From Flavobacterium sp. SUN052 (GTDB lineage: Bacteria > Bacteroidota > Bacteroidia > Flavobacteriales > Flavobacteriaceae), in assembly GCF_028867935.1 (NCBI RefSeq), contig NZ_JAPQNS010000001.1:1426001-1490000 (forward strand): 64,000 bases of DNA. The letters are read 5' to 3'. Shown in pieces: positions 15,135-20,836 of this stretch (positions are counted from its first letter, which is position 1; each line of letters begins with the position of its first letter). The translations under genes and the position numbers were made by a program. The notes under the pieces are model-generated. The model did no database searches and was not told where the DNA came from. It saw nothing but the letters and a program-made list of their open reading frames with translations.

Positions 15135-17438
15135 CTACGCCATAATGTTGCCCAAGGCGTTGTCGTAGAGACCTTTTGCATCAGTTAACGACATAACGGA
15201 CTGCCCGTCGATAATGAAGCTTTGCTCCGTTACCGAGCCTAGTTTGGCAAAGGGAACGCTTGCTTCTCCAACAGCTGTCTCAAAAGCAGCCTGGTTATCT
15301 GAAGAAACCGAGACAACTACGCGGCCCTGTGCTTCGCCAAACAACACGGCGTCGAGCCGCAACCCAGCCGAGCTACCCGCCGGAGCGGTTTGCACATCAA
15401 AACCAAGGCTACCTGCCATTGCCGATTCGGCCAGGGCTACGAACAATCCTCCGTCTGACAAATCATGAGCGGATGCAATTAGCTTCTGCGTGATCAGGCT
15501 GCTCAATGCCCGTTGCATGACGAGCTCGGCATCCATATCGAAGGCTGGCGCTGGTGACGCTTTCACACCCCGGTACGAATACAGGTATTCCGACGAAGCA
15601 ATGTCGTTGGCCGGTTGACCCAGCAAATAAATGAGATCACCCTCTTTCTGGAAGTTGAGCGTCATGCGATTATCCAGATCCTCCATCAGACCCAGCATAC
15701 CAATGGTTGGCGTTGGGAATACCGGTCCATCGTCGGACGATTGGTTGTAAAAGCTCACGTTGCCGCCCGTTACGGGAGTAGCGAACCGAAGGCAGGCGTC
15801 TCCCATGCCTTTAACGGCCTCCACAAAATGCCAGTAAACTTCTGGCACATAGGGATTTCCGAAGTTCAGGTTGTTGGTTACCGCCAGTGGCTCTCCACCC
15901 GAACAAACAATATTACGGGCGGCTTCGGCAACGGCAATCTGCGCGCCCACAAACGGGTTGGCGTTTACGTAGCGGCTGTTGCAGTCCACCGTGATGACAA
16001 TGGATTTGTCAGTTGATTTTCCGTCGGGCGTTTTCACCCGAACCACCGCAGCATCCGAAGGCGCGTTGGTACTCCGGTTCGAAGTGCCGACCATAGAGTC
16101 ATACTGCTCATAAATCCACCGGCGCGAACAGATATTCGGGTGGCTTAACAGGTGCTTCGCCACCGTCCCGATTTCGTCGGGCGTCACGTCGGCTACGTCT
16201 CCAATCTGGAATTTTGCAAATTCTTTAATGTAGGCTGGTTCGCGGTATTCGCGGTGATACTGAGGAGCACCACCACCCAACACAAGATCGTGAGCCGGTA
16301 CGTCGGCTACGAGTTGACCGTAGCGGTAGAAATGCAGACGACCATTTCCTCCCTCAGGCGCAGCAACTACCTCCCCAATCTGGGCGCAATGCAGATCCCA
16401 TTTATCAAAAATGCCTTTAATCAGGTCTTCTTTCCCTTTTTCAACCACCACCAGCATCCGCTCCTGCGACTCCGACAGCAGAATTTCGAACGGCTCCATA
16501 TTGGCCTGACGGGTTGGCACTTTGTCGAGGTCGATAATCATGCCGTGTTCGCCTTTGGCGCTCATTTCAGAAGTCGAGCAGATGATACCGGCGGCACCCA
16601 TGTCCTGAATACCAATTACGTAGCCCGACGCAATGATTTCGAGCGTGGCTTCGAGCAGCAGTTTTTCCATGAACGGGTCACCAACCTGTACGGCTGGCAA
16701 CTTCTCCGTCGATTTATCGCTGATGTCTTCAGAAGCAAACGTGGCCCCGTGAATGCCATCTTTGCCCGTTGCCGAGCCAACAATGAACACCGGGTTTCCC
16801 ACGCCGTACGAGGTTGCTTTGGCTACTTTACCCACTTCGACGATACCCGCCGAAAACGCATTTACCAGTGGGTTGGTGTTGTAGCACTCATCGAAATACA
16901 CTTCACCACCCACCGTTGGGATACCGAACGCATTGCCGTAGTCGCCAATGCCTTTTACAACACCCCGCAACAGTCGCCGGGTTTTGACCGAATCGGGATT
17001 ACCGAACCGGAGGGAGTTTAGTTGGGCGATGGGACGGGCACCCATTGTAAAAATATCGCGGTTAATACCGCCCACACCCGTTGCCGCACCCTGGTAGGGT
17101 TCGAGCGCCGAGGGGTGGTTGTGCGACTCGATCTTGAACGAACATGCCAGGCCATCGCCAATATCAACAAGTCCTGCGTTCTCTTCGCCCGCTTTGGCCA
17201 ACATCCGCTCTGAATCGCGGGGCAGCGTTTTGAGCCAGACAATAGAGTTCTTATACGAGCAGTGTTCCGACCACATCACCGAGAAAATACTCAGTTCGGT
17301 AAAGTTGGGTTTGCGCCCCAGAATTGCCTGGATACGCTCGAACTCGTCAGGCAGTAAACCCAGCTTACGGGCGGTTTCAACAGTGGGGAGTGAGGCAACA
17401 GCGGTTTGGTCAGCGGGGGTCTGGTCGATGATTTCCAC
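15135..17438 (-). CDS. purL: Phosphoribosylformylglycinamidine synthase subunit PurL
   Basis: The 767-residue protein is the small PurL form, which works with separate PurS and PurQ subunits. It converts FGAR to FGAM in de novo purine synthesis using ATP and ammonia from glutamine. Visible are the [11 protein letters not shown] segment, [18 protein letters not shown] with its glycine-rich loop, [11 protein letters not shown], the second half [20 protein letters not shown], and NNLNFGNPY. It heads the minus-strand run purL, DUF2442, Uma2, truA. Its start at 17438 agrees with the family N-terminus. No purine riboswitch is visible upstream. Confidence 0.96.
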
Positions 17439-17578: not shown

Positions 17579-17609
17579 TTGACAAATCATAAAAATCGAC
17601 ATACCTTTG
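17579..17609 (+). promoter_or_regulatory. Bacteroidota-type promoter of tRNA-Ser
   Basis: TTGACA at 17579-17584 and TACCTTTG at 17602-17609 match the Bacteroidota -33 and -7 elements, with 20 bases between TTG and TAnnTTTG. Transcription should start about 10 bases before the tRNA. This is the clearest promoter in the window. Confidence 0.85.
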
Positions 17610-17625
17610 CACCATCAAACCACGA

Positions 17626-17710
17626 AGAGAGATGGCAGAGTGGTCGATTGCGATGGTCTTGAAAACCATTGACTGTAACAGGTCCGGGGGTTCGAATCCC
17701 TCTCTCTCTG
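17626..17710 (+). tRNA. tRNA-Ser (anticodon UGA)
   Basis: The acceptor stem AGAGAGA (17626-17632) pairs with TCTCTCT (17703-17709). The anticodon stem ATGGT/ACCAT (17653-17657, 17665-17669) encloses the loop CTTGAAA with anticodon TGA at 17660-17662. A long variable arm and a T-arm with loop TTCGAAT (17691-17697) follow, as expected for a class II serine tRNA. The discriminator is G at 17710 and CCA is not encoded. The 85-base gene has its own promoter and terminator. tRNA-Ser genes are common integration points, which matters for the AT-rich gene that follows. Confidence 0.96.
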
Positions 17711-17722
17711 CAAAAGCAAACT

Positions 17723-17758
17723 AAAACGCTCACATTCAATATGTTGAGCGTTTTTTTT
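17723..17758 (+). terminator. Intrinsic terminator after tRNA-Ser
   Basis: A 10-bp stem (AAAACGCTCA at 17723-17732 with TGAGCGTTTT at 17745-17754) with a 12-base loop runs into a total of eight T residues. Confidence 0.9.
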
Positions 17759-17982
17759 CTTTTGCACCTTTTAAACTCTATAGTAGACTGACTTTTCTCT
17801 AAATGAGGCCCTAATAAAAATGTAATTTATTCAATCGTAGAGGTTCCAAGTAAAATGTAATTCAAGCAATTGACTATAAAAGGGTAAATCTTTGTTCAAT
17901 AGAACAACACCGCTAATAGACATTTTTAAAGTCTGTAAATTAGCTGTCCATATGAAAAGCTGGCGAATAAGAAATTGATATC

Positions 17983-19542
17983 ATGGCCTCTCTAAAAGAC
18001 AATATTCAAGATCACGCTAATTTGTTAGAATTCTACGGAAAAATCTTCCTAGATCCATTTGTCATAGACTCCCCCCCAGGATACTCAAAGAATATTAAAT
18101 TCCCCTTCTGCTGTAATTATCACAAAGCCGCTTATGAATACTGTGTACAATGGTTTGCCAAGTTTCCGAACTGTTGCCCAGCTCATAAAGAATTGCTGAA
18201 TGAGCCATTGTTCAAAATAGAAAAGTATAAAGGTCTTGAAGATAAAATAATTAGGCAGCTATCTTATACGGAGTACATAATATCAACAAATATTACTCAT
18301 GAAAACTGGCATAGAAATATCACAGATTATTTTGAATATAATTTTTCCAGTTTTGGAAAGCCTTCTATAGGACTAGATAGATACATTGCTTTGCTAAAGT
18401 ACCATTTAAATAATATAAAAAGTAAAATTCATAAATCAAAATATAACCTTTTAACTGAATACATTGAAACTTACACAAAACCATCACTAAAAGAGACAAA
18501 CGTAGATTTCAAAATACTGTATTCTACTTTTCAAAAATGGGCTATAACAATACCTAATTTAGACGTTTTTTCAGAAATCAAAGTAAGTCTATTAGGTCGA
18601 ATACCGATGGACTTATTTTTACATGATTTTCAGAGAAATTTCTATTCAGGCGAAACAAAAGCAAAAATTAGAACAAAAGCAGAATTAATTGATCTATTAA
18701 TTACGATAACAAAAAAACTATTATTAAGTGTACGCACTGAAAAGCTTGTAGAAGCGGGGAGAATTTCGAATATTACTAAACATCAACTTGACATCATTAA
18801 TGAATCTCATAAAATAAATCAAAGTAGTCTATTAAGGGATTATTCGTTAGGGGAAATTAAATACGTGGCCATTTTAAAGAGATGGCTATCCAATGAAGAA
18901 AAGTACTTTGAGAAAGTAAAAAAAATAATTCAAGAAAAAGTATTACTCGAAATAAAAATGCAAGAAAATAAAAGAAGACCTATACTTTTCTTATCTGCAA
19001 ATCCTCTTGATTCTTCTACATTAAGGTTAGATGATGAGTTCCGAAAAATAAAAGATGAGCTATCAGCTTCAGCGCAACGAGAAGCATTTGAGCTAGTTTT
19101 TGAACCTTCAGTAAAAATCAAGAATATAACGTTTGCTATGCAAAGATTATCACCTGAGATTGTACACTTTTCGGGGCATGGTTCAGGTAAGGATGGATTG
19201 ATAGTTCAGGATGAACTGGGAAGATCTGAGTACTTCCCTTCATTTGCATTAAGCAAACTTTTTAAGCTTTCGAAAAAAAACGTTAAGTGTGTCATATTAA
19301 ATGCCTGTTATTCTGCAGAACAAGCTCAAATAATTAGCCAACATGGTATATATGTGGTTGGCATGAATAAATCTATAAGTGACAAAGCGGCTACTGACTT
19401 CTCTATTGGTTTTTATCAAAGTTTAGGTGAAGGAAAAAGCTATAAATATGCTTTTGAAATTGGGGTCATCAACAATTCATCAAATTTTCAGGAGGTTTCC
19501 ACTCCACAGCTTTGGAAGAATGGGAAAATAATTATTTTGTAA
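17983..19542 (+). CDS. CHAT-domain (caspase-like) protease with unknown N-terminal region
   Basis: The 519-residue product ends in a CHAT domain (about residues 330-519): ILFLSANP, then VHFSGHGSG with the presumed catalytic His399, then CVILNACYSA with the presumed nucleophile Cys442. CHAT domains are caspase-like peptidases; in bacteria they act in defence, for example as TPR-CHAT with type III-E CRISPR effectors or beside gasdermins. The first 325 residues match no domain I recognise. They hold two CCxxH motifs (Cys43-Cys44-His47 and Cys64-Cys65-His68) within FPFCC and FPNCC contexts, then a long helical, lysine-rich region. No partner gene adjoins it. The gene is far more AT-rich than its surroundings (16 G+C in the 60 bases from 18301 against 33 in the 60 from 20101) and follows a tRNA gene, which suggests horizontal transfer. 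Confidence 0.85.
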   Translation: MASLKDNIQDHANLLEFYGKIFLDPFVIDSPPGYSKNIKFPFCCNYHKAAYEYCVQWFAKFPNCCPAHKELLNEPLFKIEKYKGLEDKIIRQLSYTEYIISTNITHENWHRNITDYFEYNFSSFGKPSIGLDRYIALLKYHLNNIKSKIHKSKYNLLTEYIETYTKPSLKETNVDFKILYSTFQKWAITIPNLDVFSEIKVSLLGRIPMDLFLHDFQRNFYSGETKAKIRTKAELIDLLITITKKLLLSVRTEKLVEAGRISNITKHQLDIINESHKINQSSLLRDYSLGEIKYVAILKRWLSNEEKYFEKVKKIIQEKVLLEIKMQENKRRPILFLSANPLDSSTLRLDDEFRKIKDELSASAQREAFELVFEPSVKIKNITFAMQRLSPEIVHFSGHGSGKDGLIVQDELGRSEYFPSFALSKLFKLSKKNVKCVILNACYSAEQAQIISQHGIYVVGMNKSISDKAATDFSIGFYQSLGEGKSYKYAFEIGVINNSSNFQEVSTPQLWKNGKIIIL

Positions 19543-19779
19543 ACTTACAAAATAACACAGCTGTGAAACAAAGGAAAAAGATGCTTCCGGTTCTTCTACT
19601 TAACGCATCAGGGAGGTCGATTGTCGGTTCTATTCCTGCTGGCAAGAACCCTCGTTCAGAGCCGGGGTTAGCCATTGCCCGCGAAATGGTTAAACACAAG
19701 CATATTTTGCCCACTCCAATACGTTGAATTGAATAGCATTGTATTACAATTTCACAAACCGCATTTAACCCCAAACCCC

Positions 19780-20019
19780 ATGTGGCAGGAACAAGACAAC
19801 AAACTCGTTCGCGATTTTCAATTCGCTGACTTTTCGGAAGCATTCGGGTTCATGACCCGTGTGGCGCTCATCGCTGAGAAAATGGATCACCATCCCTGGT
19901 GGTCGAATGTGTATAACAAAGTCCGCATCGAACTGACCACCCACGACGCGGGCGACACCGTCACCGATAAAGACCGCAAACTGGCGGACGCCATCAACAA
20001 GTTAACAGTGAACAGCTAG
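19780..20019 (+). CDS. 4a-hydroxytetrahydrobiopterin dehydratase (short pterin-carbinolamine dehydratase)
   Basis: From the ATG at 19780 the product has 79 residues and carries the family signature [26 protein letters not shown] (shown here in two overlapping pieces: EKMDHHPWW and NVYNKV...THDAG), including the paired His residues of the active site. The enzyme regenerates the oxidised pterin cofactor after aromatic amino-acid hydroxylation. It is shorter than the usual 95-110 residues because the N-terminal strand is missing, a form I believe is common in Bacteroidota. Its last five residues and stop codon are formed by a heptamer repeat that begins at 20004. An upstream in-frame extension to 19675 has no family similarity. 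Confidence 0.85.
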
Positions 20020-20092: not shown

Positions 20093-20836
20093 ATGCTCTA
20101 CCTCGTTCCTACTCCCATCGGTAACCTCGAAGACATTACGCTTCGGGCGGTGAATGTGCTGAAATCGGCCGATACCATTCTGGCCGAAGATACCCGTACG
20201 TCGGGTGTGCTGATGAAACACCTCGGCATCAACAAACCCTTGCAGAGTTACCATATTTTCAATGAACACCAGTCGGTGCAGCGGGTGATCGACCAGTTGA
20301 AGCAGGGCAAAACCTATGCGTTGGTGTCGGATGCGGGTACGCCTGCCATTTCAGACCCCGGCTTTTTGCTGGTGCGCGAGTGCATTCGCCACAACATACC
20401 GGTAGAGTGCCTGCCCGGCCCAACGGCCTTTGTGCCTGCTTTGGTCAATTCCGGGCTACCCGCCGACCGGTTCACGTTCGAGGGATTTTTGCCCCATAAA
20501 AAAGGTCGGCAAACCCGATTGAGTCAGTTGGCGGAGGAAGAACGGACCATGATCTTTTACGAATCGCCCCACCGACTGCTGAAAACACTGGGACAGTTTG
20601 CCGAAGTATTCGGGCCGGAGCGCCCGGCCAGTGTGAGCCGTGAATTAACAAAGCTATTCGAGGAGACTGTTCGCGGGTCGTTGTCCGAAATTATGGCGTA
20701 TTTTGCCGAGAAACCTGTCAAAGGCGAGATCGTCGTTTGTGTGCAGGGCGCAGAAAACACCAAACAAACGGCTAAGCGCGACAAAGGCAGCGATTACTAC
20801 AAACAAGACCTTGATGACGATGATGACGACGTGTAA
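20093..20836 (+). CDS. rsmI: 16S rRNA (cytidine(1402)-2'-O)-methyltransferase
   Basis: The 247-residue protein is a SAM-dependent tetrapyrrole-methylase-fold enzyme. The N-terminal LVPTPIGNLEDITLRA segment, the AEDTRTSGVLMKHLGI segment, VSDAGTPAISDPG and the LPGPTAFVPALVNSGLP loop are all characteristic of RsmI. It 2'-O-methylates C1402 in the ribosomal P site of 16S rRNA. The C-terminus ends in a run of Asp residues coded by GATGAC repeats, and the following DUF4105 gene begins inside this acidic tail. Confidence 0.96.
   Translation: MLYLVPTPIGNLEDITLRAVNVLKSADTILAEDTRTSGVLMKHLGINKPLQSYHIFNEHQSVQRVIDQLKQGKTYALVSDAGTPAISDPGFLLVRECIRHNIPVECLPGPTAFVPALVNSGLPADRFTFEGFLPHKKGRQTRLSQLAEEERTMIFYESPHRLLKTLGQFAEVFGPERPASVSRELTKLFEETVRGSLSEIMAYFAEKPVKGEIVVCVQGAENTKQTAKRDKGSDYYKQDLDDDDDDV

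Follow-up and report, generated by a model that had tools for sequence, protein, structure and literature searches.

Does a gene that stands alone behind a tRNA amount to a defence system that has not been described before? The question is raised by a gene for a CHAT-domain protein within the 64,000 nucleotides analysed here (the window, to which all positions refer unless a locus or an accession is named), for which an earlier note had proposed an AT-rich defence islet consisting of a single gene.

The gene and its insertion site

The gene (17983..19542, forward strand) encodes a two-domain protein of 519 residues, an N-terminal module followed by a CHAT protease, and it is as isolated as the earlier note had it. 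On its left lies a tRNA-Ser with anticodon TGA (17626..17711, forward strand; ARAGORN and Rfam RF00005), a recurrent insertion site, preceded by the conserved purL (15135..17438, reverse strand), and on its right are two genes which we take to be PCD (pterin-4a-carbinolamine dehydratase-like; 19780..20019, forward strand) and rsmI-like (20093..20836, forward strand). No defence gene was recognised among these direct neighbours. The gene is also poorer in G+C than its surroundings, again as claimed (31.7% vs. 50.4% for the whole window). The tRNA is followed by a terminator-like stem-loop with a T-run (17715..17760, forward strand, borders approximate), the fold of 17712-17765 reaching -16.5 kcal/mol, and a search of the locus for direct repeats of the tRNA end gave nothing above chance. 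Between the CHAT gene and PCD there is a remnant (19543..19773, GC ~0.44) without a match among the fetched relative loci at E 0.01. Part of this remnant (19585-19720) is richer in G+C, and an older insertion at this site is possible.

Relatives for comparison were chosen by PurL identity, since the genomes labelled as the same genus match the PurL of the window mostly at 25-35% and over parts of its length, vs. up to 91% in the family of genome G470, labelled merely as the same class; the taxonomy given for the window genome may thus be wrong. tRNA-Ser(tga) adjoins purL in 26 of 31 relative loci, and at least one of the other five (L087) stops at a contig end. Longer stretches (10-15 kb) were compared for 18 of the 31 relatives, a choice that favoured the closest; 17 of them have the tRNA at the locus and none of the 18 carries the CHAT gene there. 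Only one relative, L114, is colinear with the window, having PCD, rsmI and five more genes in the same order, and its homology to the window (blastn) stops at 17709 and restarts at 19774, so that 17712..19773 has no counterpart. About 47 bases 3' of the tRNA are conserved at 83-85% in two relatives (L116/L090, which are one genome, and L105); the stem-loop is therefore probably chromosomal, and the insert proper may begin near 17759. The window protein was not found in any of the four genomes of the nearest genus, and in 36 genomes of a second genus no full-length relative appeared, each half on its own being matched twice. By these comparisons the gene is an insertion, acquired horizontally, as the earlier note had supposed; presence at the same place in most relatives, which that note had named as evidence to the contrary, was not what the relatives revealed.

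Other relatives use the same site for different contents. A tyrosine integrase is the first gene behind the tRNA in seven of the 17 tRNA-bearing relatives (L115, L119, L121, L122, L123, L126 and L131), calls that were confirmed by a profile which has L115 and L126 among its seeds. AT-rich genes (GC 0.24-0.33) come first in another five (L124, L125, L127, L128 and L130), and immune families occur in four of these: AbiGi, a PNP-type effector accompanied by an AAA_35/TPR protein, an OLD/GajA-like ATPase, and a short NACHT accompanied by SNaCT5. Behind the integrase, PtuA/PtuB (Septu) are encoded in L123 and TIR-TM in L122, and in the remaining five of the 17 no integrase or immune gene was seen by eye. 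In a blind PADLOC count (ORFs of at least 150 aa, one NtrC-type match omitted, best 25 of 75 families) at least 6 of 56 ORFs within 4.5 kb of the tRNA were positive vs. at most 2 of 55 at 9-13.5 kb, a difference that is not significant (Fisher p 0.27 for 6 vs. 2) and in which the six were assigned using the immune families identified at the site, because PADLOC tabulates its results by family, not by protein. The presence of AbiGi, the PNP-type effector, the OLD-like ATPase, NACHT, PtuA/PtuB and TIR-TM at this insertion site supports an immune reading of the window gene.

A CHAT protease joined to a conserved module

The C-terminal part, residues 330-519 (18970..19539, forward strand), scores 29.5 bits against Pfam CHAT (PF12770), for which the curated threshold is 24. 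The catalytic His399 (codon 19177..19179) and Cys442 (codon 19306..19308, both forward strand), already named in the earlier note, are kept in 27 of 27 CHAT rows, and the predicted model has a caspase-like fold (pLDDT 89.5). By score, dyad and modelled fold the window protein is a CHAT peptidase, with proteolysis as its predicted activity. Outside the module family the nearest CHAT domains are those of EAD11-CHAT proteins (up to 62% identity), and in a quick tree of 75 rows the five CHAT domains joined to the module form one group near them (SH-aLRT 93). The genome of the window also encodes a second CHAT-like protein (L002 442-2004, 520 aa), with the protease part at the N-terminus, next to a gene that looks SGNH-like by eye.

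CHAT proteins have non-immune roles as well as immune ones, and a CHAT protease is part of SAVED-CHAT. The window protein differs from SAVED-CHAT (8tl0): Pfam gives no SAVED domain for it, the PADLOC SAVED_CHAT profile aligns with its CHAT part alone, and no cyclic-nucleotide-synthase gene is present among its identified neighbours. Borvo is a single gene; a PADLOC scan of the window protein, with a library that may lack a Borvo model, gave no match named BovA. CHAT proteases are described in type III-E CRISPR and in Borvo, which likewise employs a CHAT-type protease in phage defence (PMC10952713). The TPR-CHAT of type III-E CRISPR (craspase) also combines CHAT with a regulatory N-terminal half, but the window protein has no TPR among Pfam matches to E 1 and no CRISPR gene is found among purL, tRNA, PCD and rsmI. 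The gasdermin-activating proteases differ in that the window islet has no second gene of gasdermin size. The earlier note's observation that TPR, CRISPR and gasdermin are missing beside the gene is thus borne out.

Residues 1-320 (17983..18942, forward strand) make up a conserved, helical module. It contains two CCxxH motifs in the arrangement CCxxH-x16-CCxxH (C43, C44, H47; C64, C65, H68; 18109..18186, forward strand), a possible zinc site. These cysteines and histidines are kept in 71-74 of 75 rows per position and are among the near-invariant positions of the module, which further include W109, G125, W186, P191, T243 and W301. Modelled alone, the module reaches a pLDDT of 86.5. Residues 1-320 gave no significant match in Pfam or among solved structures, which does not in itself prove a new fold, and residues 1-325 showed no known housekeeping domain, the other finding that the earlier note had regarded as contrary to a defence role. 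Among the titles and abstract openings surveyed there was no description of the module or of its tie to integrases.

In the first homology search, 17 of the 120 matches listed (of 408) share the N-terminal half, and only four of these 17 have a CHAT domain. The family was enlarged with a 13-row profile, a second search and a third search with 74 rows, after which the module was present in 178 of 281 collected proteins, the window protein included. Its distribution is patchy, as it occurs in 10 of 395 genomes of the class (the window's own included) and in 4 of 200 genomes of the family. One protein (L146 1477-3033) ends in the module, which follows an N-terminal part of ~170 residues. Two neighbouring genes (L003 1129-2454 and 2512-3570) appear by eye to encode the same C-terminal tail of ~110 residues, with the module in only one of them, and this tail might constitute an independent interaction domain. 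A plasmid of Hymenobacter sp. 5317J-9 (NZ_CP095051.1 40204-41364; L132) encodes a module protein of 386 aa whose tail is short; an integrase precedes it by ~3.8 kb, and a protein with a dsDNA nuclease domain is encoded close by.

Exchange of C-termini

The constant module is followed by very different C-termini. The largest cluster, nuclease-like, has 67 proteins, 59 with an intact DIL...ECK motif and one with TIR (P0193), and a second, PD-(D/E)xK-like type has seven. CHAT follows the module in five proteins and SEFIR/TIR in four. Tails in which no domain was recognised fall into three main families of 47, 10 and 5 proteins; a GNNNN type, weakly like PADLOC PDC-M14B, comprises seven and a P0048 type five. 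Eleven smaller groups or singletons include one EAD11 (P0183) and one Mrr-like C-terminus, and eight module proteins have little or no C-terminus. These numbers are shaped by the queries, and separate families may have been joined by the single-linkage clustering; the PD-(D/E)xK and Mrr labels were given by eye, the sole Pfam hint being PDDEXK_9 below its cut-off. Two phage records from human faeces (PV036449.1 62231-62614 and MT838941.1 3943-4335) match the ECK nuclease-like part of P0009 and not its module.

A maximum-likelihood tree of 74 modules has two sides (support 99/95). One holds 13 of the 14 integrase-associated genes and 3 of the 33 nuclease-labelled rows, the other all CHAT, TIR and GNNNN rows and the remaining 30 nuclease-labelled rows. 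With unclear C-termini left out, the module tree requires seven changes among five labels; counted singly, nuclease changes six times, integrase-associated three times, TIR twice, and CHAT and GNNNN once each. The seven changes, together with the six for nuclease and the two for TIR, indicate repeated swapping of C-termini, and the C-termini other than CHAT appear to have been exchanged more often. For CHAT itself, which is compatible with a single origin on the module tree (support 47/84), the simplest history is one fusion with an EAD11-type CHAT, as the module-CHATs group together near the EAD11-CHATs. The module and CHAT trees are compatible with either the integrase-adjacent or the effector lifestyle as the earlier one. 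Together with the closeness to EAD11-CHATs, the EAD11 fusion of P0183 suggests that perhaps the same link exists in trans and in cis.

The EADs likewise follow a principle by which effectors are exchanged while a non-catalytic part stays constant (PMC8195603). EADs are small adaptors, whereas the module has ~310 residues and is fused straight to its effector; the window protein has no EAD match in Pfam, EAD11 being found only in the sister protein P0183. PADLOC assigned the C-termini of two sister proteins to the effector parts of bSEFIR (E 4.1e-33) and PDC-S54 (E 1.1e-58), and PDC-S54 seems to have another N-terminal half, since the match covers only positions 237-406 of the 410 in its profile. 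Likely immune effectors of at least three kinds are attached to the module, for which Pfam has no model: caspase-like protease, nuclease-like and SEFIR/TIR. Because it is joined to such different domains, its output may be a general signal that activates whatever effector is attached, e.g. oligomerisation. By analogy, the module would be the input and CHAT the output of the window protein. The suggestion in the earlier note that the N-terminal half might act as a sensor has gained strength, as this half proves to be a conserved module that occurs in fusion with a variety of effectors.

The integrase-adjacent branch and the role of the module

A second branch of the family, not foreseen in the earlier note, adjoins integrases. 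Association was taken as an integrase within 300 bp upstream of the module gene on the same strand. Among 28 distinct loci of a first set, it was found at 12 of 18 without a recognised effector vs. 0 of 10 with one (p = 9e-4; 0.003 when L044, of the GNNNN type, is taken as having no effector); two further loci without a recognised effector (L042 and L052) have an integrase farther upstream, at 1.7-3.2 kb, and one lies ~8 kb off on the opposite strand at the effector locus L051. Genes near L051 resemble mobilisation genes by eye. Another sample of 395 genomes of the class contributed six new loci, L142 and L148/L151 (repeats of L040 and L046) and L146 (module C-terminal) being left out; here the integrase was present at 4 of 5 loci without an effector and 0 of 1 with one (L149). 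In the pooled data a tyrosine integrase accompanies 16 of 23 module genes without a recognised effector, whereas 0 of 11 with an effector have one (Fisher p 1.3e-4; counting L044 in the first group gives 4e-4), values that serve as a guide only because the loci are related by descent. Of the 16, thirteen start 1-21 bp behind the integrase, two overlap it by 1 or 4 nt and one (L045) lies 259 bp away, the module gene starts being first-ATG guesses. Downstream of the module, 50 ORFs pooled from eight integrase-associated loci (L042 and L052 among them; best 25 of 34 families, counted over the pool and not per locus) yielded HTH_17 (9), BT4734-like_N (5), DUF3987 (4), DUF5906 (2) and D5_N (2). Gene by gene, L048 reads integrase, module, HTH_17, DUF3987 (Pfam).

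This arrangement resembles PICMI satellites, for which the published account gives the gene order int-iolg-alpA-prim, with iolg required for excision in the element studied, and search criteria of an integrase, alpA (PF05930/PF12728) and a DUF3987/DUF5906 primase (PMC10803314). Most PICMI are said there to carry a gene of unassigned function that overlaps the integrase, as iolg genes do, and two of the tail-bearing module genes overlap theirs likewise. Gene order and PF12728, PF13148 and PF19263 are common to both; by gene order, the tail-bearing module gene occupies the place of iolg. Module elements differ from PICMI, as described in that article, in that they belong to Bacteroidota, have restriction-type cargo and are only putative satellites.

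Since this branch adjoins integrases without a recognised effector, the core job of the module may not be immune sensing. The module could primarily be a mobile-element factor, a partner of the integrase in excision or induction like iolg, and the window gene a displaced descendant whose protease controls or protects an element instead of fighting phage, e.g. by cleaving a repressor. The integrase association, the HTH_17 and DUF3987/DUF5906 genes behind the module, and the need for iolg in PICMI excision (PMC10803314) all point this way, but the window gene has no adjoining integrase, HTH or primase and no above-chance repeat of the tRNA end, and SEFIR/TIR and nuclease-like partners suit killing better than regulation. 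We consider this explanation unlikely for the window gene. Less likely still is a horizontally acquired, regulated protease that serves stress responses or development and has nothing to do with phages. CHAT and caspase-like proteases do occur in signalling roles and the host has a large genome with a second CHAT-like protein (L002), but such a role fits poorly with the patchy spread of the module, the occurrence of SEFIR/TIR or nuclease-like domains in place of CHAT in other members, and an insertion site common to immune families. It is very improbable that the gene is a decaying leftover, intact in appearance and non-functional, for although it lacks the first ~20-30 residues that many relatives have, the model is poor over residues 1-20 (pLDDT block means 45-69) and the promoter motif TAnnTTTG is absent from the 272 bases upstream, the 519-codon frame is open, the conserved module positions and both catalytic residues are retained, and members of the L003/L004 type also begin at the shorter point.

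We regard it as fairly probable that the window gene is a single-protein immune system. A lone gene behind a tRNA, with a module that elsewhere accompanies likely cell-killing enzymes or integrases, is probably an antiviral system of an undescribed kind. Residues 1-320 would act as a sensory or regulatory module that keeps the C-terminal CHAT protease inactive; a cue derived from a phage or mobile element, perhaps bound by the lobe containing the CCxxH motifs, would alter or oligomerise the module and free the protease, which would then cut proteins of the cell or phage and abort the infection. A regulatory part fused to CHAT is of a known kind, and what appears to be new is the module of residues 1-320 and its integrase-adjacent tie. 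If the single-protein reading is true, caspase-like defence by one protein that contains its own sensor would offer a minimal and tractable model of protease-based abortive infection.

The integrase-adjacent link also provides a testable proposal for the origin of the sensor and for the role of the integrase-overlapping genes of satellites. It is conceivable, if on the unlikely side, that satellite-like elements of Bacteroidota use the module, encoded right after the integrase, to detect incoming phages and switch excision, and that immune genes borrowed it and repeatedly rewired it to effectors, a protease in the window gene and nuclease-like or TIR/SEFIR domains elsewhere. Such borrowing would trace an evolutionary path from the helper-phage sensor of a satellite to a suicide system. 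Elements with the order integrase-module-HTH have restriction cargo of type I (L057) and of a type III-like kind (L047), that of L052 includes AAA_5 (McrB type by eye), and ThaI and BrxA matches occur among the 50 pooled downstream ORFs. Upstream of the integrase-module pair there are Cas9-like genes, so named by eye on the basis of their N-termini, on a Flavobacterium cyanobacteriorum contig (L053 1393-6048, 1551 aa) and in a Bacteroidetes MAG (L054 3382-7746, 1454 aa).
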